In this document: positions 7,033 to 29,506 of the stretch, piece by piece
How positions within the stretch are numbered: the stretch's first letter is position 1
Layout of the letters: each line of letters begins with the position of its first letter
NCBI GenBank assembly: GCA_016793095.1
Contig: JAEUJQ010000050.1
Span: forward strand, 124,001 to 188,000
DNA: 64,000 nt
Direction: 5' to 3'
From: Myxococcaceae bacterium
GTDB lineage: Bacteria; Myxococcota; Myxococcia; Myxococcales; Myxococcaceae
Notes under the pieces: model-generated
Seen by the model: the letters and a program-made list of their open reading frames with translations, nothing else
Told to the model about the DNA's origin: nothing
The model's database searches: none
Program-made: the position numbers and the translations under genes

Positions 7033-7256
7033 GGGCGGCGGGAGGCGACGTCGGCGGCGATGGACAACCCGAAGAGCAGACAGGCCAGCACCCCGAAACC
7101 CTGCGCGACCGACATCGCGCCCACCACGGGGAGCGGCGTGCCGAGCAGCACGCCCGTCACCATCAGCGCGAGGGCGAACAGCCCCAGCACGCAGGCGATG
7201 CGCAACATGCGCTCGGTGGGCCAGCGGGCGAGCAGTCGAAGGAGGCGCGTCATCAT
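7029..7256 (-). CDS. Small two-helix inner-membrane protein
   Basis: This 75-residue protein has two hydrophobic helices (about 18-40 and 47-68) and no cysteine cluster or heme motif. It sits between the NapC-like and 23-heme genes and overlaps both neighbours by four bases (ATGA upstream, GTGA downstream), which shows that it belongs to the operon. A role as assembly or anchoring subunit of the quinol dehydrogenase is inference from position only. No known family was recognised. Confidence 0.7.
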   Translation of the reverse strand: MMTRLLRLLARWPTERMLRIACVLGLFALALMVTGVLLGTPLPVVGAMSVAQGFGVLACLLFGLSIAADVASRRP

Positions 7257-7891
7257 CGGCTCAGCTCCTCCTTCGTCTTGCTGAACGGGTGCGCCACGCC
7301 GTGGCAGCCCGCCGAGGCGCACGACACCTTGTTCTGCGCGAGCTCGTCGGCGAGCGAGACGTGCTCCTTCACGTTGAGGAAGGACGCGAGCGTGCCCGAG
7401 TGGCACTGCTGGCAGTTCTGGTTGGGGTAGGGCTTCGCGGTGCGGATCTCCGCGTGGAACTTCTCGAGGGACCAGCTGCGGAAGCCGCCGAGGTAGTAGT
7501 GGTACACGTGCATCATGCCCGTCAGCTTGGTGAGCGGGTACCCGAGCATTCCGTAGTCGGCGTGGCAGGTGTAGCAGGCCGTCGGCCCGATGATGTGGCT
7601 GCGCGAGTGCCGCGAGGCGAGGCTGGTGCTCTTCGGGTCCTGCAGGTCCTGCAGGTGCGTCTCCATGACGTGGCACGAGCCGCAGAACGTCGGCTCCGTC
7701 GTGCGCACCATGCCCGAGCCCGTGCTGGCCACCGCCGCGACGAAGGGGAACACGGCCAGCCCCAGCAGCAGCCGCATGCGCACCCCGGGCGTCAGCTTCG
7801 GCCGGAAGAGCAGGTGGTGCAGCAGGATGGTGGCGGCGATGGCGGCCGTCACCAGCGTCAGGGCTCCGAATGGCGTGAAGGCGCTCCCCAT
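7253..7891 (-). CDS. NapC/NirT-family multiheme quinol dehydrogenase-like cytochrome
   Basis: This 212-residue protein has two N-terminal hydrophobic segments (about 8-30 and 40-60), then CGSCHVM (Met follows the first heme motif, as in NapC/NrfH/CymA), CYTCH, CQQCH and a fourth site of the CX4CH form (CASAGCH). Members of this family take electrons from menaquinol at the inner membrane and hand them to periplasmic cytochromes; CymA does this for Shewanella metal reduction. Two leading hydrophobic stretches in place of one are slightly unusual. It starts five bases after the decaheme stop, with a weak ribosome binding site, so coupling to the gene upstream is likely. It is the best candidate for electron entry into this cluster. 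Confidence 0.83.
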   Translation of the reverse strand: MGSAFTPFGALTLVTAAIAATILLHHLLFRPKLTPGVRMRLLLGLAVFPFVAAVASTGSGMVRTTEPTFCGSCHVMETHLQDLQDPKSTSLASRHSRSHIIGPTACYTCHADYGMLGYPLTKLTGMMHVYHYYLGGFRSWSLEKFHAEIRTAKPYPNQNCQQCHSGTLASFLNVKEHVSLADELAQNKVSCASAGCHGVAHPFSKTKEELSR

Positions 7892-7896
7892 GGCGG

Positions 7897-10098
7897 TCAG
7901 GGCGATACCGCGTGCGCGGTGTCGACTCCAGCACTCCTTCCAGCGGCGTGGCACACGGCGCAGGCCTCGACGCCGGTGGACGTGGTGTTGAGCGACGCGT
8001 GAGCCGAGGCGGCCGCGCTCTGGTGGCAGCCGGTGCAGGCCGCCGAGGTGGGCTGCTCGAAGACCGGCGTGACGGCGGTAGCGCCGGCGAGGCACGACTG
8101 GCCACCGTCGGCCGGGCCGCTCGGGCCGCCATCGGGCAGCGGCGACACGCAGGTGCGCACCTCACTGCGCGACGGCAGCAGGCCCGCCGGCAGCGGCAGC
8201 GAGACGCCGGTCGCCGTGTGGCACTTCCCGCAGGCGTTGAGCGGCGACGGGTAGCGCGCGTTGGCGTGCACCCGGTGCACGAGGTCCTTCAGGTTGGCGG
8301 CCGGGGCGGTGACGGCGCCACCGTCGAGCGGCGTCACGACGTTCTCCACCAGGTTGCCGCCGTGGCACACCACGCAGTGCTCGGTGTTGGTGCGGGTGCC
8401 GCCGTGCTCGGCGAGGCCCTGGTGGCAGGCGTCGCACTGGGCGAGGGTGACGGTCGAGCGGCGCCCCTTCGCGACGGCGTCGGTGACGGCGAAGGGCGCG
8501 ACCGGGTTGACGGCGCACCAGCGCACGCCGGCGTCGGTGGTGGCGCACACCTCCATGCCGACGGTGAAGCTGCCGGTGTCGGTGGGCAGCAGCGCCGTGA
8601 GCGCGCGGTAGCGGAAGACGCCCGCGTCGAGGCGCTCGAGGCACGCGCCGCCGTCGGTGAGGACCGCGCAGTCGGCGGCGGTCTCGGCCGTCTCGGACAC
8701 GTAGCGCGCGATGTCGGTGTTGGGCCCGGCGAAGACGAAGCGCAGGCGGCTCAGGCGCGCCGCCAGCACGTCGCGGGGCTGCCCGTTGACGTTGACGCCG
8801 AAGGTGACGGTGGGCCGCGCGCCGGGCGGCGTCGCGGGCACCGAGATGATGTTCGCCCTCACGTCGATGCGCGACGGGTCCCGGCCGGGGCTCCGGTGCC
8901 GCTCCTCGATGGGGGCGATGCCCATGGTGGCCGGGTGACAGATGCCGCACTGGTTGTCGTTGCGCGGCCCCACGGCGTGCAGCGTCCACCCCGGCGGCGG
9001 CGTGGCGCTGGTGAGCCAGGTGCGGTCGTGGCAGCCGGCGCAGTTGTCGGTGGTGGGGTTCGTCTTCCACCGGTCGTCGGTGGCTGCGTGGCACCCCTCG
9101 CAGGTCGCCAGGTTCCCCGGGTATGCGACGCTCGAGTAGTCGTGCAGCTGGTTGTTGAAGCCGATGAAGCGGTACGGCACCCCCGCGTCCACGCTGGGCA
9201 GCCGGAAGCCCATGTGAATCGAGTGCACCATCTTCTTGAAGTCGTACGAGGTGCCGGTGTCGGGGTCGATGTCAGCCGAGTTCGTGTGGCACAGGATGCA
9301 GAGCGCGACGTCGCGCCGCGCGCCCCCGTGCGCCTCGAGCCGGGTGTGACAGGCGTTGCACTGCTGGTCCGTCACCAGCTCGCGCTTCTTCGTCACCGCC
9401 TGGCCGTCGGGCCGGAAGTGGAACACCGTGTTGTCGACGTGCCGCACGCCCTGCACCGTGCGGGTGGCGTACAGCCCGACGGAGTGCGTCTTCGCCGCGT
9501 TCGCGCCCACCACCACGGGCGTCGCGAAGAGGTAGCGGTAGAGGCCCTGCGCCGCGTCCACCTCGACCCAGGCGCCGTTCTGGTCGCTCGCGTTCTGCAG
9601 AAAGCTGCCGCCGTCGAAGGCGACGGTGCGGCGCGTGTAGCTGACGTACTGCAGCGGCAGCCCGTCGCTGGCGCGCTCCTCGAGGTAGCCCAGGACGAAG
9701 GAGACGCTCACCGCGCCCTCCGTCAGCAGCCCTGCGCGGTCGAGCCGCCGCCCGGCCTCGTCAGCGAGCTGCACGTCCACCGACACGCCGCCGTCGGCGA
9801 TGGCAGCGCCCAGCACCGTCACCACGAGGCCTGGACCGCTGAAGCGCAGGTCGCGGCCGTTCTGGCCCGCGTCGCCGGCTGGCCCCTGCGGCCCCTGCAT
9901 TCCATTCTGACCCGGCTGGCCGTTCTGACCCGCCGGCCCCTGGGCGCCCATCGAACCGGGCTGGCCCTGGGTGCCCATGGAGCCGGACTCACCAGCCGGC
10001 CCCTGAGGACCGGCCGGGCCTGCGGGGCCCTGGCACGCGCTGACGAAGACGACGGCGGCCAGCGCGCACGCCCGCGTCATGAAGGTGAGGTCGTTCAT
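7897..10098 (-). CDS. OmcA/MtrC-family decaheme lipoprotein cytochrome with collagen-like stalk
   Basis: This 733-residue protein has a lipobox (VFVSAC, Cys22), then about 20 Gly-X-Y triplets (residues 23-83), a beta-rich domain and ten CXXCH motifs in two sets of five, separated by a second beta domain. That split pentaheme layout is typical of OmcA/MtrC outer-surface cytochromes, which deliver electrons to minerals or shuttles. The collagen-like stretch would hold the heme body away from the lipid anchor. AGGAG upstream of the ATG fixes the start. It is the first gene of the leftward operon, diverging from the beta-barrel gene. Confidence 0.92.
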   Translation of the reverse strand: MNDLTFMTRACALAAVVFVSACQGPAGPAGPQGPAGESGSMGTQGQPGSMGAQGPAGQNGQPGQNGMQGPQGPAGDAGQNGRDLRFSGPGLVVTVLGAAIADGGVSVDVQLADEAGRRLDRAGLLTEGAVSVSFVLGYLEERASDGLPLQYVSYTRRTVAFDGGSFLQNASDQNGAWVEVDAAQGLYRYLFATPVVVGANAAKTHSVGLYATRTVQGVRHVDNTVFHFRPDGQAVTKKRELVTDQQCNACHTRLEAHGGARRDVALCILCHTNSADIDPDTGTSYDFKKMVHSIHMGFRLPSVDAGVPYRFIGFNNQLHDYSSVAYPGNLATCEGCHAATDDRWKTNPTTDNCAGCHDRTWLTSATPPPGWTLHAVGPRNDNQCGICHPATMGIAPIEERHRSPGRDPSRIDVRANIISVPATPPGARPTVTFGVNVNGQPRDVLAARLSRLRFVFAGPNTDIARYVSETAETAADCAVLTDGGACLERLDAGVFRYRALTALLPTDTGSFTVGMEVCATTDAGVRWCAVNPVAPFAVTDAVAKGRRSTVTLAQCDACHQGLAEHGGTRTNTEHCVVCHGGNLVENVVTPLDGGAVTAPAANLKDLVHRVHANARYPSPLNACGKCHTATGVSLPLPAGLLPSRSEVRTCVSPLPDGGPSGPADGGQSCLAGATAVTPVFEQPTSAACTGCHQSAAASAHASLNTTSTGVEACAVCHAAGRSAGVDTAHAVSP

Positions 10099-20148: not shown

Positions 20149-20341
20149 GCTGGAGTGGATGATCGACCCACCGCACCCGGATTGACAAGCCGTGGGGGAG
20201 CACTGGACCGGGGAAGGCTGAGTCAAACCGGAAATGTCCCTGGTTTCATCGTTCCTGCGACTCACCGTTCCATGCCCGGCGTCCTCGCCTGCTTGTTCGC
20301 GCTCACCGGGGCGGTCTACGAGTGCGTCCTCTGGAGTCTCC

Positions 20342-23300
20342 ATGACACGGCCCGTCCTGCACCTCGCTGTCCTCCTCTCGCTGGTCTTCGGGTGCTCGCA
20401 GCCGCCTCCGCTGACTCCGTGTAGCAGCGCGACCTGCACGGGCTGTTGCTCCGGGAACGAGTGCCAGCCGGGCACGACGAGTTCGACGTGCGGTCGGGGC
20501 GGCTTCAGCTGCTTCGACTGTGGACCGGCCGGCGTGTGCGCAGCGGGCGAGTGCGTGAACGCGTCCGGGGGAGGGACTGCGGGCGGCGCGAGCACAGGAG
20601 GCGGCGTGGCAGGCGGAGCCGCGGCTGGCGGCGACGCGGGCGGCGAGGCGGGGGGCGCCGCTGGAGGCGGGAGCGCGGGTGGCTCGACCGGCGGTGGGAG
20701 CACGGGCTGCCTGTCGTGCGCGGGCTGCTGCGAAGCGGGCTCGTGCGTGACGGGCACCACCAACGCGGCGTGCGGAGCGAACGGAGCCGTCTGTCAGACG
20801 TGCATGGGCAGCACGTGCATGGCTGGCGTGTGCACCGTCGCGCTCCCGGGTGGCGACGACTGCACCACGGCCTCCACCCTCACCTTCAATGCCCAGAACG
20901 TGGCCCAGGTGACCGTCGATCCGGCCGGGTTCGCGGATCACACGACGGCGAGCTGCGGTTCGAATGGCATCGACGCGGTGGTGGCCTTCGACGTCGCGAG
21001 CGCCAACACGTTCGTCACCGTCGATGTCACCGGCAGCGTCGGCCCGCCACCCACCGTCTCGCTCCGCACCACCTGCAGCAGCGGCTCGAGCGAGGTGACC
21101 TGCTCTGGCTCGGGCAGCCTCTCGCGACGGCTCGCCGCGGGTCGCGCCTTCGTCTGGATGGAGGCGGCGCCGGGCTCGGGTCCGCTGACGCTCACGGTGC
21201 GACGGACGCCGGTTCAGCCGGGAGACTCGTGCAGCAACCCGCAGGACCTCACCTTCACCAACGGCGTCGCCTCGGTCACTGGAACGCTGCTCGACTTCGG
21301 GCCCGATGGAGTGAGCTGCGCTCCGAACAGCCGTGACGCGGTCTACCGCTTCACGCTGCCGACCGCCGGCCCGGTGACGGTGCGGCTCGAGCCGCTCTCG
21401 TCTCAGTTCGACCCGAGCCTCACCCTCAACGGCGCCTGCGGCTCGTCGGTCAACTGCGGCGGCCCGGGGCCTGGCGTCATCGAACAGGTCAGCCAGACCC
21501 TCGGCGCGGGAGCACACCTGGTCCAGGTCGAGAGCTCGAACGGCACGGCGGGCCCGTACACCTTGAGCGTGCTCACCTCGGTCGCGACCGACGGGGGCGC
21601 ACCATCTGCCTGCCTCTCTCCGCTGCCCCTGACGTTCAACGCGATGGGCGCGGCGACCGCCTTCGTCACCACGGCGGGGCGACCCGACACCCTGCAGACC
21701 TGCCTGTCCGGCGTCTCGAGCGGCCCCGACACCGTCTACCAGTTCCGCGTCAACAGCCTGGCCGACCTGCAGGCGTCCTTCTCGGGCGCGGTCTCGGCGG
21801 TGGCGCTGCGCTCGGCGTGCAACGGGCCGGATCTGGCGTGCGGCTCGGCCATCAACGTCGCGGACCTCGCTCCAGGCGACTACTTCCTCATCGCCGACTC
21901 GTACCGCACCGAGACCTCGACCCAGACGCTCCGCGCGAGCCTGACGCCGCCGAAGCCCATCGGAGAGACCTGCGCGCGCCCCCTGCCCCTCGCCCTCTCC
22001 GCCGGCGCCGACGGTGGCACCGTCACCGTTCCAGTCGATCTCGCGGCCGCGACCGACGACATTCCGAACGGCTTCGCGTCTGGTGGCTGCAACGCCATCA
22101 GCAACGCGCCAGATCGCTTCTACGCGGTCACCATCGGCAGACCGCTCATCGTCACGGTCTCGGCGACGCGCACCTCGACCAGCGGAGCCGTCGAGGTGGG
22201 CCTGACGTCGGCGGCGGGCTGCGCCGCGGGCCAGGCGTCACCCTGCGCCTCGGGCACCGCGCCGGGGTTCGCCGAGCTCCTCACGGCGGGCACCCACGTC
22301 ATCCGCGTGCAGGGAACGGCGGGCAGCCAGGCCACGCTGACCATCACGGCGAGCGAGCCTCCACCCGGAGAGTTCTGCGGCAACCCCGTTCCCATCACGC
22401 TCCCGGCCGGCGGCGGCCTGCAGACGCACACCGCCACCACGCGTGGCAGCACGCAGGAGAACTTCAACAACGCCTGCGCGGGCTACGACCTGCCCGACCG
22501 CGTCTACGCGGTGACGCTGCCGGACCCGGTGTCGAACCTCACCATCACCACCACGGCCATCGGCTCGACGAACGCACCCGCCTTCATCGTGGTGCCGACG
22601 TGCAACCAGATCGTCCCGTCGTGGGAGCGGTGCGGCACGGGCGCCTCGGCCACGAAGACGCTCGAGGTCTCGGGCATCACGGCGGGCACCTGGTTCGTGT
22701 GGGTGAAGGGCCCGGCGCTCGCGGGCACCGACTACCGCATCGACTTCTCCAGCCGGCCCTCACCGCCCGGCGAGACCTGCCGCTCGGCCATCCCCATCAT
22801 GCTCTCCGACGGCCTCGATGGCGGCTCGGCCACCCTCACGGGCTCGACCGTCGGCGCGAACGATGACTACACCGCGTGCAGCCAGATCAGCCCCGCCTTC
22901 CCGGACCTCGTGTACTCGCTCTCGCTGGGGCGACCGCTCGACGCGCGGATCACCATGACGCCCACCGGGACCGGCGCCGGCACGCTCACCCGGCTCGACC
23001 CCTCGACGTGCTCGACGGACACGCTGACCTGCGCGCGCGGCGCGGTCGGACAGCCAGTCACCTTCAAGGCCACGCTCGACGCCGGCGTCTCGTTCATCTC
23101 GGTCGATCATTCCTCGGGCGGGCCCGGGCCGTTCACCCTCAACGTCTCGGTCGCGCCGCCCATCGCCGGTGACTCGTGCGCGCAGCCCCTGGCGCTCACC
23201 TTCCCGCCGACGGGCGGCACGCAGCGCGTCAACGTGGACTCGAGGAGCTTCATCAGCTCGGCCGAGGGCTGCGGCCGCTCGGGTGACGTCTTCTACGCGC

Positions 23301-25111
23301 TCTCGCTGAGCCAGCCGATGGACGTGCGCGTCACGCCGGTCGGGGGCTCGGGCTCGCCGCGCGTGGGCCTGGGCGCCACCTGCTCGTCCATCACCTGCCA
23401 GTTCGGCGGCTCCCTGGCCGCGGGCAGCGTCCCCGCGGGGACCTCGGTGCTCGTCTTCGACGCCGACGACTTCACCGAGCAGGCGTACGCCTTCGACGTG
23501 ACCGTGAGCCCGCCGACGCCGGGAGACACCTGCGCCAACCCCATCGCGCTCTCGATTCCTCCCACGGGAGGCACTCAGTCCATCGCGGGCACGCTGGCCG
23601 GCGCGTTCGACGAGTTCCGCTCGACCAGCTGCTCGACCTTCTACCCGGACCGCGTGTACCAGTTCACCACCAGCCAGCCGCTCGCCTTCGTGGCGCAGGC
23701 GGCTCCGAGCCCGGCGGACGGCGGAGCTCCGGTGCTGTCGCTGCGCAGCACCACCTGCGACCCTGCGGTGCAGCCGGTCGCGTGTGGCGCGTCGACGCCC
23801 ACCTCGAGCAGCGTGCGGGTGGCAGCGCTTCCGGCAGGCACGCACTTCCTCACGGTCGATCGCGCGGGGTTCTCGACCGCCGAGGCGTACTCGCTCGACG
23901 TGTCGCTCGGCGGCCGGCCCACGGGTGACACCTGCGCGACCGCCACCGCGCTCGCCCTGCCGACGTCGGCGCCGGGCGAGGTGACGGTTCGCGGCGACAC
24001 GAGGCCTGCCTTCCACGACGTCACGCCGAGCTGCGGCAGCTCCGCGGGTACCCGCGACGCTCCCGACGTCGTGTATGCCCTCACGCTCGCCACGCCGATG
24101 AACGTCCGGCTCTTCACGCGCGCGCTGACGCCGGGCTTCCGGCCGACCGTCGCGCTCAAGCCCGGCTGCGCGACGACGGACGCTGACCGCGCCTGCGGCT
24201 GGACGCCGACCTTCTCGACCGACACCTGGACGACCGCTCGTCCGTTGCCCGCGGGCACCTGGTACGTCGTGGTGGACGGCTACGACGCCCTCCAGGCCGG
24301 CGCGTTCGACCTCACGGTGCGCACCTCACTGCCCAACCCACCTGGAGAGTCGTGCAGCACTGCGGCCCCCATCGCGCTGTCGAGCGGCACCTTCGGGCGC
24401 GCCCTGGTGTCAGGCACGTTCGCCGACTTCTTCGAGGACCTCACCGACTGCTGGAACTCGAGCGGCTCCGACGCCGTGTATTCCATCACCACCAACCAGC
24501 CGCGGCGCCTTCACGTGCTGGCGACGCCGAGCGTGCCGACCAGCCAGCCGACGCTGTCGCTGCGCTCGACCTGCGCCTCGTCGTCGTCTCAGCTCGCGTG
24601 TGAGCGCTCGTCCTTTGACGGGACCGGCCGGCTGGCAGCGACCCTGCCCGCAGGCACCACCTCGCTCATCGTCAAGTCCGGCCTCGCCGTTCCCTCGGGG
24701 ACGTTCACGCTCGACGTGCGGGTCGATGACTTCGCCGCGGGCGACGTCTGCGCCAACGCCGTCCCGCTCACCATGGGAGGGACCACCAGCGGCGACTCCT
24801 ACAGCTTCGGGGCAGACGCCACGCTGAGCTGCGACTCGAGCCGCGCGCCCGACACCTTCTTCACCTTCACCACCGCCGCCCCCCAGACGTTCACCGCAAC
24901 GCTGACGCGGCAGAACACCTCGGAGCCCTTCTCGATGGCCCTCTTCCCCGGGTGCGCAGGCGCCGAGCGGGTGTGTCGCTCGACGGGCTTCTCGTCAGCG
25001 CCTCTCGTGCTGACGCAGACGGCGCTCCCGGCTGGCGCCTGGGTGCTCGTGGTGCGCGGTGGAACCACCAGCCCGTCAGGCTTCTCCGTCAACGCGACGC
25101 TGACGCCGTGA
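20342..25111 (+). CDS. Giant surface lipoprotein with about eleven PPC-like repeats
   Basis: This 1589-residue lipoprotein (lipobox LVFGC) has a Cys-rich module (CTGCCSGNEC), a Gly/Ala/Ser linker, a second Cys-rich module (CAGCCEAGSC) and then about eleven repeats of 110-135 residues to the C-terminus. Each repeat opens with a GD/GE-x-C-x-x-x-x-P/A-I/L motif and has a central D-x-V-Y-x-F/L segment, a cysteine pair and an LPAGT-like turn. They resemble bacterial pre-peptidase C-terminal (PPC-like) beta domains. No catalytic domain is present. TGGAG precedes the ATG; upstream ATGs give no leader. A role in adhesion or as a surface scaffold is inference. The lipoprotein at 59.6-62.1 kb has three related repeats. 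Confidence 0.85.
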   Translation: MTRPVLHLAVLLSLVFGCSQPPPLTPCSSATCTGCCSGNECQPGTTSSTCGRGGFSCFDCGPAGVCAAGECVNASGGGTAGGASTGGGVAGGAAAGGDAGGEAGGAAGGGSAGGSTGGGSTGCLSCAGCCEAGSCVTGTTNAACGANGAVCQTCMGSTCMAGVCTVALPGGDDCTTASTLTFNAQNVAQVTVDPAGFADHTTASCGSNGIDAVVAFDVASANTFVTVDVTGSVGPPPTVSLRTTCSSGSSEVTCSGSGSLSRRLAAGRAFVWMEAAPGSGPLTLTVRRTPVQPGDSCSNPQDLTFTNGVASVTGTLLDFGPDGVSCAPNSRDAVYRFTLPTAGPVTVRLEPLSSQFDPSLTLNGACGSSVNCGGPGPGVIEQVSQTLGAGAHLVQVESSNGTAGPYTLSVLTSVATDGGAPSACLSPLPLTFNAMGAATAFVTTAGRPDTLQTCLSGVSSGPDTVYQFRVNSLADLQASFSGAVSAVALRSACNGPDLACGSAINVADLAPGDYFLIADSYRTETSTQTLRASLTPPKPIGETCARPLPLALSAGADGGTVTVPVDLAAATDDIPNGFASGGCNAISNAPDRFYAVTIGRPLIVTVSATRTSTSGAVEVGLTSAAGCAAGQASPCASGTAPGFAELLTAGTHVIRVQGTAGSQATLTITASEPPPGEFCGNPVPITLPAGGGLQTHTATTRGSTQENFNNACAGYDLPDRVYAVTLPDPVSNLTITTTAIGSTNAPAFIVVPTCNQIVPSWERCGTGASATKTLEVSGITAGTWFVWVKGPALAGTDYRIDFSSRPSPPGETCRSAIPIMLSDGLDGGSATLTGSTVGANDDYTACSQISPAFPDLVYSLSLGRPLDARITMTPTGTGAGTLTRLDPSTCSTDTLTCARGAVGQPVTFKATLDAGVSFISVDHSSGGPGPFTLNVSVAPPIAGDSCAQPLALTFPPTGGTQRVNVDSRSFISSAEGCGRSGDVFYALSLSQPMDVRVTPVGGSGSPRVGLGATCSSITCQFGGSLAAGSVPAGTSVLVFDADDFTEQAYAFDVTVSPPTPGDTCANPIALSIPPTGGTQSIAGTLAGAFDEFRSTSCSTFYPDRVYQFTTSQPLAFVAQAAPSPADGGAPVLSLRSTTCDPAVQPVACGASTPTSSSVRVAALPAGTHFLTVDRAGFSTAEAYSLDVSLGGRPTGDTCATATALALPTSAPGEVTVRGDTRPAFHDVTPSCGSSAGTRDAPDVVYALTLATPMNVRLFTRALTPGFRPTVALKPGCATTDADRACGWTPTFSTDTWTTARPLPAGTWYVVVDGYDALQAGAFDLTVRTSLPNPPGESCSTAAPIALSSGTFGRALVSGTFADFFEDLTDCWNSSGSDAVYSITTNQPRRLHVLATPSVPTSQPTLSLRSTCASSSSQLACERSSFDGTGRLAATLPAGTTSLIVKSGLAVPSGTFTLDVRVDDFAAGDVCANAVPLTMGGTTSGDSYSFGADATLSCDSSRAPDTFFTFTTAAPQTFTATLTRQNTSEPFSMALFPGCAGAERVCRSTGFSSAPLVLTQTALPAGAWVLVVRGGTTSPSGFSVNATLTP

Positions 25112-25135
25112 GCGCTCGACGCCGCGATGATGAGA

Positions 25136-25470
25136 GCAACCTGGCCGTTCGACTCGACCCGACGCGCCACCGGCTTCAGGGGCCGTCGCTCGGGGGCCGC
25201 GTCAGCCTGCCACGATGAACTGAACAACCTGGCCGCTCGACTCGACCCGACGCGCCACCGGCTTCAGGGGCCACGTCAGCCTGCCACGATGAACTGAACA
25301 ACCTGGCCGCTCGACTCGACCCGACGCGTCGCTTCATGGCCGTGGCTCGGGGGCCGCGTCAGCCGGGCCGCGATGAAGTGAACAACCTGGCCGCTCGACT
25401 CGACCCGACGCGCCACGGGCGTCAGGGGCCGTCGCTCGGGGGCCGCGTCAGCCAGGCCGCGATGAAGAGG
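25136..25470. repeat. Tandem array of about 75-88 bp copies of the Clp-fusion gene 3' end
   Basis: Four copies start near 25136, 25223, 25297 and 25381. Each has AACCTGGCCGCTCGACTCGA, then CCCGACGCG, a variable GGCTTCAGGGGCC stretch, and GGCCGCGTCAGCC followed by a CGATGAAG/CGATGAAC end. The last copy includes the final codons and stop of the leftward Clp-fusion gene (GGCCGCGTCAGCCAGGCCGCGATGAAG), so the array looks like repeated duplication of that gene's 3' end into the space between two convergent genes. Copy 2 lacks about ten bases and copy 3 has a diverged middle. Confidence 0.85.
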
Positions 25471-28247
25471 TCGATCTCGCCGCGCAGCACGTCCTTCATG
25501 CGCGGCGTCGCCTCGCCGGTGCGAGGGTCCTCGACCCGCGCGCCGCGGCCGACGAAGTAGCGCCGCACCTCCGCGCCGCCTTCGGCCTGCCCGTCGAGCA
25601 CCGCGAGGGTGAGGGCCTTGAGCTCCTCCACCGCGCAGGCGCCCGCGAGCGCCACCTCCCGTCCCGTGCGCTCGTCCCGCACCGTCGACTCCGTCGCCAC
25701 CTTCTCCACGTACCGACCGGCGCGACGTTTCACCTCCCGCGCGACGAGGGTCATGGAGTCCGCGACCTCCGCGGGAGCCTGGGACGGCGTGTAGAGCCGC
25801 ACGTAGGCCGCCACGCGCGCGTCATCGTCGATGCGCCGGTGCAGGCCACGCTCGCCCGAGAGGAAGCCGAACACACCCGGCCCGTGAAGGTGCAGCACCG
25901 CTCGCCGCGGCTCGTCACCTTCGGCCAGCACCTTCACCTCGTAGCTGCGGCGTTGCGCCCAGCCGACGTACATCGCGACCAGCTCACGCACCCAGCCCTC
26001 TCCAGCCTCGCCCTCGACGGCCGCGGCGAGCTCGACCCACGCGTCATCGACGTTCCCGGCCGAGCCCGACGCCACGCGCGCCTCGGCGAGCTGCACCTCG
26101 CGACCCGCCTCCTCGACGGCGCGCACCGCGGCCGCCAGCTGCATCTCGCCCTTCGCGTCCCGCGCCCGCCGCCGCGCGACCTGGCACTGCTCCCTCAAGC
26201 GGTCGAGCTCGGCGAGCTGCGCGTCGATGGCGCGGTAGGTGCGCAACACCGCCGCGGCGCGCTCTCCGTCGTCCCAGAAGCCGGGCGCCTGCGAGAGGCC
26301 AAGCAGCTCGCGGCGCCGGTTCTCGAGGTGCGGGCGCTTCGCCGCCGACGCGACGCCAGCCGCGCGCCCAACCAGCGCCTCGGCTTCCTGCGTGAGGGCC
26401 TTCTGGTCGAGGCGCTTCTTCGCGAGCGCGGCGCCGGTGCCGGGCAGCGTCGCCTGGGCGGTCGCTTCCCGCTCGCGCGTCACCTTCGGCTCGGCGATGG
26501 CGTGCACGCGCCCCTTGTGGCTCACCACCTTCACCGGCGTCGTGGGGGGCAGCGACTGGCGGGCGATCTCCACCGCCAGCGCCGCGGTGAGGGACTTCTC
26601 GATCTCGCGCTGCAGGTAGCGCGCGCCGTGGATGGGGGAGTACCCGCGCTCCACCAGCAGCTCCACCACCTCGGGAGCCACCTCGACGTCGAGCTGCCGC
26701 GCGCGAATGCCCTCGCGCTCGAGCACGCGCCCCACCTCGCGCTGCGCGATGCGGCGGATCTCCACCTTCCCCAGCGGGCGGAAGTGGCAGATGGCGTCGA
26801 AGCGGTTCAAGAACTCGGGGCGGAAGGCGGCGGCGATGCGGCGGTCGATCTCGTCGAGCAGCTCCTCGTCGCTGCGGGACGACGCGAAGCCGATGGGCCC
26901 CTCGCGGTACACCTCGGCCCCGACGTTCGAGGTGCAGACGATGAGCGCGTTGTTGCACGGCACGGTCTCGCCCGCGGCGTTGATGAACTGGCCCTCGTCG
27001 AAGAGCTGCAGGAAGCGGTCGTGGCACTTGGCGTGCGCCTTCTCGAACTCGTCGAGCAAGAGCACGGTGAAGACGCGGCCGTCGAGCAGCCGGGTCAGCT
27101 CGCCGCGCTTCGAGTCGAGCGTCTGGGCCCAGGGGTTGCCGAACAGCACGTTCTCGTCGCCGTGGTCCGGGTAGTCGGCCATGTTGAGCCGCACGAGGCG
27201 CTCGTGGCTGCCGAAGAGGTACTCGGCGAGCAGCTTCGCGAGGTGCGTCTTGCCGACGCCGGTGGGGCCCGCGAAGAGGAAGACGCCGAGCGGCCGGCGC
27301 GGGTCGTTGAGGCCGGCCTTCAGCAGGGCGACGCTGCGCAGCACCGCCTGGAGCGCGTCGGTCTGCCCCAGCAGGCGCGTGCCGAAGAAGCGACCCACCT
27401 CGTCGAGGTCGAGCGGCACCTGGTCGTCGGCCATGAAGCGGGGCAGGCGGGTGGAGCTGCAGAAGCGGGCGAGCACGTCTTCGCCGGTGACGCGCTCCCT
27501 CGCGGCGCCGGCGGCCTCGGTGACGGTCTCCTTCAAGAGCTCGATGGCCTTGCGGGGCAGGCGCTGCGCGAGGAGGAACTTCACCGACAGGCGCAGGGCG
27601 ACGTCGCAGGCCGACGGGTCGATGGGCACGCCGGCTTCGAGCTCGAGCTCCTCGGCGACGCGCCCCAGAATCCACCGAGCGCGCTCGTGCGTCGGCTCGT
27701 TCACTACCACCAGGTGCAGGCGCTCGCTCAGCGTCTCGTCGCTGCGCAACAGCTCGTGGGCGCGGCGCAGGTCGGACTCGAAGATGAACTTGAGGCGGCC
27801 GGCGCGCAGCGAGCGGATGAGCACCGGCACCAGCGAGCTGCCCTGCACGAGGCCGACGTCGCGCAGGAAGACGATGGTGGGCTGCGCGGCCACCTTGTCG
27901 AGGAAGTCCTCGAGCAGCTCGGCGGCGGCCTTGGGCGTGTTGGTGCGGGCGAAGACACCGGCCGAGGGCACCTCGAGCACCCGGCAGCCCTTGAGGCTCT
28001 CGGGCGCGGTGCCCTGCACGATGCGCCGCGCGAGCTCCTGCACGATGGCCGACTTGCCGACGCCGCCCTCGCCGGCGAGCAGCGGAGACTTGTCGCCGCG
28101 GGTGAGCAGCGTCGCGAGGTCGTTCGCGGCCTGGTCGAGGCCGTGGCCGGTGGGCAGCTTGCCGTCCTTCGCGAGCGCCGTGAGGTCGCGCTCCACCAGC
28201 GCCAGCCAGCCGTCGGGGCCGTCGGTGCGTGCCTTCTTCTTCGCCAT
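25422..28247 (-). CDS. Two-domain Clp/Hsp100 AAA+ ATPase fused to an RF2-like domain
   Basis: The 941-residue protein has no Clp N-domain. AAA-1 (about 40-270) has Walker A GEGGVGKS (59-66), but its Walker B reads IVFLRDV, without the catalytic Glu. AAA-2 (about 285-580) is complete: GPTGVGKT (327-334), LLLDEFEKAH (396-405), RPEFLNR (476-482) and sensor-2 GARYLQR (541-547). Residues 640-930 follow peptide release factor 2: GFWDDGERA, MYVGWAQRRSYEVKVL (759-774), GVFGFLSGERGLHR (791-804) and EDPRTGEATPRMKDVLRGEI near the end. The GGQ hydrolysis motif and SPF stop-codon motif are absent. A sound GGAAGGTG site precedes the ATG. A ribosome-targeted unfoldase is the obvious guess, with no proof. 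Confidence 0.9.
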   Translation of the reverse strand: MAKKKARTDGPDGWLALVERDLTALAKDGKLPTGHGLDQAANDLATLLTRGDKSPLLAGEGGVGKSAIVQELARRIVQGTAPESLKGCRVLEVPSAGVFARTNTPKAAAELLEDFLDKVAAQPTIVFLRDVGLVQGSSLVPVLIRSLRAGRLKFIFESDLRRAHELLRSDETLSERLHLVVVNEPTHERARWILGRVAEELELEAGVPIDPSACDVALRLSVKFLLAQRLPRKAIELLKETVTEAAGAARERVTGEDVLARFCSSTRLPRFMADDQVPLDLDEVGRFFGTRLLGQTDALQAVLRSVALLKAGLNDPRRPLGVFLFAGPTGVGKTHLAKLLAEYLFGSHERLVRLNMADYPDHGDENVLFGNPWAQTLDSKRGELTRLLDGRVFTVLLLDEFEKAHAKCHDRFLQLFDEGQFINAAGETVPCNNALIVCTSNVGAEVYREGPIGFASSRSDEELLDEIDRRIAAAFRPEFLNRFDAICHFRPLGKVEIRRIAQREVGRVLEREGIRARQLDVEVAPEVVELLVERGYSPIHGARYLQREIEKSLTAALAVEIARQSLPPTTPVKVVSHKGRVHAIAEPKVTREREATAQATLPGTGAALAKKRLDQKALTQEAEALVGRAAGVASAAKRPHLENRRRELLGLSQAPGFWDDGERAAAVLRTYRAIDAQLAELDRLREQCQVARRRARDAKGEMQLAAAVRAVEEAGREVQLAEARVASGSAGNVDDAWVELAAAVEGEAGEGWVRELVAMYVGWAQRRSYEVKVLAEGDEPRRAVLHLHGPGVFGFLSGERGLHRRIDDDARVAAYVRLYTPSQAPAEVADSMTLVAREVKRRAGRYVEKVATESTVRDERTGREVALAGACAVEELKALTLAVLDGQAEGGAEVRRYFVGRGARVEDPRTGEATPRMKDVLRGEIDLFIAAWLTRPPSDGP

Positions 28248-28387: not shown

Positions 28388-29404
28388 TCAGGGCGCTTGC
28401 GACGCGAAGAAGCGCCACGCCTCCTCGGCCATCTCGACGTCGCCGTTCTGCCGGCCGACCGCCAACAGGTAGAGCGGCGCGTAGCGCTCGGTCGGCGAGG
28501 GCTCGGTGTGGCCACCCTCCTCGACGCGCAGCAGAGCGACGGTGGGCCAGCTCGCCCGGCTCGTCACCTCGACGACGGTGGAGCGGTCGCCAGGAAAGGT
28601 ATCGGGGCGAGCCGTCTCCACTTCGGGCGCGGTGACGTTGTTGACGGCGCGCCAGAGGTCCATCGACGCGCGGGTGGACAGCACGGTGCCGCGGCCGGCG
28701 TTGGGGCCGACGACCGCGCCGCCGTCGAAGGGCACCAGCGGGTCTCGCGTGCCGTTGATGAAGAGCACCGAGACGGGGCGGGTCGGCGCGGGGCACTCGG
28801 AGGCGGCCGGCATGGCGGCGATGACGGGCGCGACCGCGCGGAAGACGTCGGGCCGCTCGATGGCGAGGCGCAGCGACATCATGCCGCCGTTCGAGGCGCC
28901 GTTCGCGAAGACGCGCGCGCGGTCGACTCCCTGCGCGCCGACGTGGTTGACGAGGCCGACGAGGAAGGCCACGTCGTCGGTGGTGGGGTTGGTGCCGTTG
29001 TCGCCGCGGCAGTCGTTCCACCCGGGCTCGCCGCCGTCGGGCGCGACGCCGAAGGGGAAGACGACGAAGACGCGCTCCCGCTGCCCGATGTCGAGCCACC
29101 GCTTCGTGGGCGCGGCGTTGTTCTCGAGGCCGAGCAGCTGGTCGGCGTTGCCGCCGTTGCCGTGGAGCACGAGCACCAGCGGGCGCAGCTCGCCCGGCTC
29201 GCGGGGCGGTGCGTAGACATGGTAACGGCGCGCACCTCCGTCGGTCGTGGACGGCTGGTCGCGCCGCAGGCCGACGAAGAGCGCGACGCCCGAGTCGGGC
29301 ACCGAGGCGTCGAGCAGCTCGACCCCCGCGTCGATGGCCGGCGAGGGTGCCGTCACGCGCTGGGAGCACGAGAGCGCGAGCAGGGTGAGCAGCGCCGGCC
29401 GCAT
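28388..29404 (-). CDS. LpqC/PHB-depolymerase-like esterase lipoprotein
   Basis: This alpha/beta hydrolase of about 338 residues has a very short lipoprotein leader (LLALSC). It contains an HGNGG oxyanion-type segment, GASNGG as nucleophile elbow (serine in ANGASNGGMM), NGTRDPLVPF carrying the acid Asp, and GGHTEP with the catalytic His. The family includes polyhydroxybutyrate depolymerase-like and feruloyl-esterase-like secreted enzymes; the substrate is not evident. The start is uncertain: the ATG at 29404 has GGAG close by, while 29413 or 29416 would lengthen the leader to a more usual size. Confidence 0.8.
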   Translation of the reverse strand: MRPALLTLLALSCSQRVTAPSPAIDAGVELLDASVPDSGVALFVGLRRDQPSTTDGGARRYHVYAPPREPGELRPLVLVLHGNGGNADQLLGLENNAAPTKRWLDIGQRERVFVVFPFGVAPDGGEPGWNDCRGDNGTNPTTDDVAFLVGLVNHVGAQGVDRARVFANGASNGGMMSLRLAIERPDVFRAVAPVIAAMPAASECPAPTRPVSVLFINGTRDPLVPFDGGAVVGPNAGRGTVLSTRASMDLWRAVNNVTAPEVETARPDTFPGDRSTVVEVTSRASWPTVALLRVEEGGHTEPSPTERYAPLYLLAVGRQNGDVEMAEEAWRFFASQAP

Positions 29405-29440
29405 GGGCTCCATCATCCGGTAGTTCTCGACGGCGTGCAG

Positions 29441-29506
29441 CAACGTGATGACACAACGTGATGACGGCGGTGTGTGACGGCGGTGTGTGTGACGGCGGTG
29501 TTTCCA
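29441..29506. repeat. Short direct repeats upstream of the EF-hand gene
   Basis: CAACGTGATGACA occurs twice in a row, followed by three copies of GACGGCGGTGTGT-like sequence. They lie between the divergent esterase and EF-hand genes, so they could be protein-binding sites or simple slippage repeats. Confidence 0.6.

Follow-up and report, generated by a model that had tools for sequence, protein, structure and literature searches.

A conserved Clp ATPase of Myxococcaceae fused to a release-factor-2-like domain without the GGQ and SPF motifs

The fusion gene and its surroundings

The window, which is the whole stretch of 64,000 nucleotides analysed here, carries on its minus strand an apparently monocistronic gene (25422..28247) whose single frame runs from an ATG at 28247 to a stop codon at 25422-25424 and encodes a protein of 941 amino acids. 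A purine-rich AGGAAGG, read by eye, lies upstream of the ATG. Two AAA+ modules, together spanning residues about 15-585, are followed by a linker and a C-terminal domain resembling release factor 2 (RF2). AAA-1 (27468..28190, minus strand, residues about 20-260) was delimited by alignment with the Clp proteins of the same genome and by PDB alignment, and AAA-2 (26493..27395, minus strand, residues about 285-585) by Pfam, the Clp alignment, and the fold match to ClpA 6w20. The linker (26328..26492, minus strand, residues about 586-640) is the least conserved part of the protein. The RF2-like domain (25425..26327, minus strand) comprises residues 641-941 by sequence and starts at about residue 615 as a fold.

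Pfam placed AAA_2 at residues 318-486 (1.6e-32), ClpB_D2-small at 492-574, and PCRF at 642-804 (2.1e-14) of the 941-residue protein. The NCBIfam ClpA model aligned continuously over residues 19-562, with 275 bits against a cut-off of 993 bits, and the NCBIfam prfB model matched at 5.8e-21, far under its curated cut-off. Among PDB sequences, residues 1-593 matched ClpB, ClpC, and ClpA, and the C-terminal third found RF2 first (E. coli RF2, 8e-13), with a second RF2 block, individually weak, at the extreme C-terminus. The preliminary description of this locus had proposed two AAA+ modules followed by an RF2-like C-terminus; the single frame, the Pfam and NCBIfam domains, and 43 orthologs of like architecture all agree with that layout.

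Upstream of the fusion gene, positions 28388-29443 hold a gene whose product resembles extracellular PHA depolymerases/esterases (NF050058, 8.9e-35, below cut-off); it is not conserved beside the fusion elsewhere. Positions 25121-25453 form an imperfect tandem array with units of 74-88 bases. The final copy overlaps the 3' end of the fusion gene, which makes the units look like duplications of that end. Facing the fusion gene is a frame of 1625 residues (20234-25111) that begins rich in Cys and Gly/Ala and continues in many similar repeats; it looks like a secreted repeat protein. At the fetched fusion loci, no neighbour gene common to all clades was found, and none ties the fusion to translation. 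About ten loci, all of them from Myxococcus, Corallococcus, Archangium, Pyxidicoccus, and Hyalangium, have a conserved gene for an HNH endonuclease upstream of the fusion (for example, L022 8031-8657 and L019 8456-9280).

Distribution and integrity of the fusion

A genome-contig scan recovered the same architecture from Myxococcus, Corallococcus, Archangium, Hyalangium, Pyxidicoccus, and many metagenome bins. The fusion, evidently an old one, is present in 84 of 195 Myxococcota genomes, namely 83 of the 96 Myxococcaceae and one genome of another family in the same order, nearly always as one copy per genome carrying it. Myxococcus xanthus carries the gene. Myxococcaceae genomes that do not are mostly smaller (2-7 Mb). 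The fusion was not found beyond Myxococcota in the single genome-contig scan, the reach of which was close relatives only, and no plasmid record covered 80% of it.

We collected 43 distinct orthologs, full-length or near-full-length, each encoded by one open frame. Since these come from independent assemblies, several of them single-contig genomes, a sequencing or assembly error that joined two genes, which the preliminary description had named as a possible undoing of its reading, was ruled out. A decaying pseudogene was likewise ruled out by dN/dS values that stayed well under 1 for all segments and pairs tested, and chance resemblance to RF2 by the PCRF match, the PDB sequence match, and the fold match presented below.

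A few loci deviate from this pattern. In one near-complete genome, G128, the AAA part and the RF2-like part are in different frames (locus L124, G128:C1:3001500-3006000, about 2600-2660); the frame break sits at a GC-rich run in the linker and reflects either a sequencing error or a natural split. A Myxococcaceae bin with a small genome, G105, holds the RF2-like part without the AAA modules (locus L123, G105:C77:63000-76000, 7100-8281), between a xerC-like recombinase gene and hslV-hslU. It was rejected as an ancestral stand-alone RF2-like gene, because pieces of the N-terminus and linker of the fusion survive there in other frames, which indicates that the AAA modules were lost by internal deletion. 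Proximity to hslVU was seen at no other fetched fusion locus. The record BNCN01000002.1 (L031) is labelled Comamonas sp. KCTC 72670; its contig of 969 kb contains the myxococcal fusion together with the neighbouring genes, and the label is probably wrong.

One intact and one degenerate ATPase module

The genome also encodes ClpA, ClpB, and a third Clp, and the fusion was aligned with all three, of which ClpA and ClpB score over the NCBIfam cut-off. For M. xanthus, eight copies of clpA/B/C are reported (PMC11423568). The model of the whole fusion protein superposed on the ClpAP chain 6w20_A with a Z of 32.0 and an rmsd of 4.5 over 536 residues, covering 14-585. No N-domain is present, as AAA-1 starts at about residue 20, and there is no M-domain.

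The Walker A motif of AAA-1 (GVGKS) is intact. Its Walker B motif is degenerate, with DE replaced by RD in 42 of the 43 orthologs and by PD in the other one, and its sensor is not kept in the alignment with the genome's own Clps. With Walker B changed in this way, AAA-1 is probably ATPase-dead. The AAA-2 motifs (GPTGVGKT, LLLDE, TSN, FRPEFLNR, and GAR) are intact, and the Walker A and B motifs, sensors, and arginine finger are invariant throughout the 43 orthologs, so that one ATPase of the ring appears to be live. Both a degenerate first and an intact second module had been noted in the preliminary description, and both hold across the 43 orthologs.

The pore loops differ from those of ordinary Clp proteins. 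The K[YF]RG motif of AAA-1 is lost, and the GYVG motif of AAA-2 is replaced, with an invariant tryptophan, W373, two residues before the position of the tyrosine. Tryptophan serves in the D2 pore of p97/Cdc48. Because both canonical motifs are lost, ordinary threading of nascent chains is not to be assumed. Between sensor 1 and the arginine finger, the fusion has an [ILMV]GF tripeptide (26886..26894, minus strand, residues 452-454) where ClpA/ClpC have their ClpP-docking loop; G453 and F454 are invariant in the 43 orthologs. The tripeptide lines up with VGF in the ClpA of the same genome and has no counterpart in its ClpB. Such a tripeptide is a criterion that separates ClpP partners from ClpB (PMC10149685). 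In the model, residues 362-370, just before W373, and 450-456, which form the GF loop, have low confidence, as expected of mobile loops.

One reading of these features is a classical ClpP-partner unfoldase to which a C-terminal domain for substrate recognition has simply been added and which threads stalled nascent chains for degradation. The [ILMV]GF loop at the ClpA position, the fold match to ClpAP chains, and the two full-length ClpPs of the genome (a third match is weaker) would suit such an enzyme. We nevertheless regard it as very improbable, since the fusion has lost both of the pore-loop motifs that ClpA, ClpB, and the third Clp of the same genome all retain.

An RF2 fold from which the GGQ and SPF motifs are missing

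The structure of residues 596-941 was predicted with AlphaFold from 21 orthologs, without templates and without release-factor sequences. The model had a mean pLDDT of 77.7, with low values in the last 45 residues. Its best fold match was E. coli RF2 (1gqe, Foldseek E 2.6e-11), and the matches ranking after it were all release factors. VIA-align superposed the model on 1gqe with a Z of 14.8 and an rmsd of 6.2 over 289 residues (model 20-334 against 4-357). Pfam, AlphaFold, and the fold search thus agree on a four-domain release-factor fold with a PCRF domain, comprising D1 with FWDD, D2 with GxHR, a shortened D3, and the C-terminal EDPRTG...FIAAW. The match is closest in D1/D2 (642-804) and in the final 45 residues. 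A tree of 29 rows put the fusions into a single group, apart from all RF2 rows with support of 100/100, and we therefore take the domain, on the evidence of its sequence, to be a divergent relative of RF2. Similarity to RF2 over about 290 residues, as first described, is upheld in kinship and in a fold match over 289 residues; its start has to be corrected, in that detectable similarity begins at about residue 640.

The two motifs by which RF2 reads stop codons and releases peptides were reported absent in the preliminary description, and they are missing from their sites in all 43 orthologs. The alignment was made to an RF2 profile that contained some wrongly framed rows, so that its probability is rough, and the fold comparison is independent of that profile. 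The SPF position falls in a gap, and no ortholog has SPF in the domain. The GGQ loop (lost site at 25713..25721, minus strand, residues 843-845, located by the profile alignment and column counts) aligns with a short x-G-x loop, in which residue 844 is glycine in 43 of 43 orthologs and residue 845 is never glutamine, being R, E, T, A, S, L, or N instead. The loop that replaces GGQ keeps a basic stretch rich in K/R/H. Three orthologs contain chance GGQ strings away from the GGQ site.

The persistence of basic residues around the former GGQ loop would also suit a domain that binds mRNA or another RNA, with the ATPase remodelling a ribonucleoprotein. There is a precedent in chloroplast PrfB3, which has lost the same two motifs, binds the 3' UTR of petB, and protects petB mRNA (PMC5897788). 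PrfB3, however, is a stand-alone protein of plant plastids, and we consider an RNA-binding role distinctly improbable for the fusion.

The company that the fusion keeps in its genome bears on another explanation. Canonical RF1, RF2, and RF3 are encoded elsewhere in the genome; the fusion is therefore a third PCRF protein and not the housekeeping factor. It may instead offer its RF2-like domain as bait for partners of RF2, such as RF3, the GGQ methyltransferase PrmC, or an ArfA-like rescue factor, which the Clp part would disassemble or degrade, or it may control the availability of RF2. RF2 meets RF3 and bL11 through D1, which the fusion retains, RF3 is at hand in the genome, and appended domains for the choice of partners are common among Clp proteins. 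PrmC, however, binds the GGQ loop, which the fusion has lost, and D1 beyond FWDD is conserved only moderately, so that we rate the bait explanation as improbable.

Selection on the RF2-like domain

Segment by segment, dN/dS was 0.00-0.41 across the pairs tested, and the RF2-like domain is under purifying selection. AAA-2 has 53% invariant columns. In the linker (residues 590-640), only 6% of the columns are invariant, and this segment had the highest dN/dS in several pairs. Within the RF2-like domain, the most conserved stretch is the C-terminal block EDPRTG...PR.K.V..G...FIA.W, and GxHR and the last 45 residues rank among the best-kept parts, with moderate conservation only in D1 outside FWDD. 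Since the release-factor fold is kept, the release motifs are gone, and dN/dS is well below 1, the domain serves something that needs the shape of RF2 and not release.

This pattern of conservation was weighed against a purely structural or regulatory role, in which the RF2-like part would oligomerise through its D1 helices or control the ring with no tie to translation. The model does show long D1 helices, the elements that read stop codons are gone, and AAA-1 has already been reduced, probably to a structural role. Conservation peaks in the C-terminal block, not in the D1 helices, and D2-D4, which should erode if D1 alone mattered, are under purifying selection. We therefore judge a role of this kind unlikely.

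A possible address on the ribosome

Bacterial Clp machines are usually aimed at their clients by N-domains, adaptors, or tags. To our knowledge, the only natural address of RF2 is the ribosomal A site. Because the shape of RF2 fits this site, an address is the simplest reading of the domain. We tentatively propose, at somewhat less than an even chance, that the protein is a ring derived from ClpA in which an inert RF2 provides an address at the A site and brings the AAA-2 motor to its clients. The ring would be an ATPase, presumably a hexamer, without the substrate-binding N-domain. The inert RF2 would dock in or near the A site of free, stalled, or resting ribosomes, where it would trigger no peptide release, and docking would bring the AAA-2 motor within reach of clients on the ribosome or of a ribosomal component. 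ClpP might be brought along through the [ILMV]GF loop. The client might either be gripped in an unusual manner, with Trp373 replacing the tyrosine, or be remodelled without threading.

Counted for this docking model are the release-factor fold kept without release motifs and with low dN/dS, the good conservation of GxHR and of the last 45 residues, the retention of G844 and the basic stretch, the complete set of AAA-2 motifs, the [ILMV]GF tripeptide alongside two full-length ClpPs, the normal RF1, RF2, and RF3 of the genome, and the precedents of Balon and PrfB3. Counted against it is the loss of the RF2 residues that contact the stop codon, on which binding of RF2 to the A site normally depends in part. 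The loss of K[YF]RG and GYVG argues against an ordinary threading unfoldase, no conserved neighbour gene is linked to translation, and six RF2-sized domains behind AAA-2 might leave little room at the ring's ClpP face. Docking on ribosomes with action on nascent chains or ribosomal proteins, the role supposed in the preliminary description, has become more plausible because of the four-domain fold under purifying selection, the tripeptide resembling a ClpP-docking loop, and the precedents of silenced release factors with retained binding to ribosomes or mRNA (Balon, PMC10901736; PrfB3, PMC5897788). It has become less simple because both canonical Clp pore-loop motifs are lost, which is the chief point of tension in this reading.

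In a bolder and rather doubtful form, the docking model would make the fusion a dedicated ATP-driven ribosome remodeller of myxobacteria. The release-silent RF2 would steer the Clp ring into the A site, where the ring would extract nascent chains or ribosomal components or deliver them to ClpP, as a bacterial counterpart of the system in which eukaryotes use Cdc48 for the quality control of stalled ribosomes.

The conserved Clp-RF2 protein of Myxococcaceae suggests a Clp machine aimed at ribosomes, in which a Clp ATPase was apparently welded to an A-site-addressed protein after its release activity had been removed. If ribosome binding is true, the fusion would represent a bacterial AAA+ factor that works directly on the ribosome, be it translating or resting. 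It would also exemplify a bacterial RF2 retained for its shape after the loss of both functional motifs. The lineage, with Myxococcus xanthus among the carriers of the gene, is genetically tractable.

Comparison with known systems

The open-access literature searched, outside which most subscription papers lie, yielded no account of a Clp/Hsp100-RF2 fusion, and the terms ClpA and myxococc are absent from a review covering the evolution and domain architectures of release factors (PMC6514570). The closest relative of the ATPase part is ClpA (ClpAP, Hsp100 class I). Like ClpA, the fusion has two AAA+ modules per chain, no M-domain, and a tripeptide resembling the ClpP-docking loop at the same position; the ClpA model covers most of the Clp part (19-562), and ClpAP 6w20 is its best fold match. 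Unlike ClpA, it has no N-domain, a degenerate Walker B motif in AAA-1, neither pore-loop motif, and an RF2-like C-terminus. ClpI of Actinomycetota is likewise a two-ring Clp outside the ClpA/B/C classes, set apart by sequence only, but its ATPase modules and unfolding motifs are intact and the paper on it mentions no release-factor domain (PMC10149685).

With bacterial RF2 (prfB), the C-terminal part shares the four-domain fold, PCRF, FWDD, GxHR, and the C-terminal D.RTG...F block; it differs in the absence of SPF and GGQ, in a shortened D3, and in the attached Clp ATPase. PrfB3 of land-plant chloroplasts is, in the same way, an RF2 paralog without SPF and GGQ, retained for another task; in the myxococcal genome, a canonical RF2 is present besides the fusion. 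PrfB3 stands alone without an ATPase, whereas the RF2-like domain of the fusion is joined to AAA+ modules. Balon is a hibernation factor of the aeRF1 family that has no GGQ, binds the ribosomal A site, and works with EF-Tu (PMC10901736). It resembles the fusion in being release-factor-like without a release motif, with binding to the A site demonstrated for Balon and proposed for the fusion. Unlike Balon, which has no ATPase, the fusion domain is kin to bacterial RF2 by sequence and fold and not to the aeRF1 family; aeRF1 and the bacterial release factors are evolutionarily unrelated (PMC6514570). Eukaryotic Vms1, which takes part in the quality control of stalled ribosomes, has a binding motif that links a release-factor domain to Cdc48, an AAA+ ATPase (PMC6514570). 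Both halves of the myxococcal protein belong to known families, and the joined protein fails the defining features of both, having lost the pore loops and the AAA-1 Walker B motif of the one and the SPF and GGQ motifs of the other.
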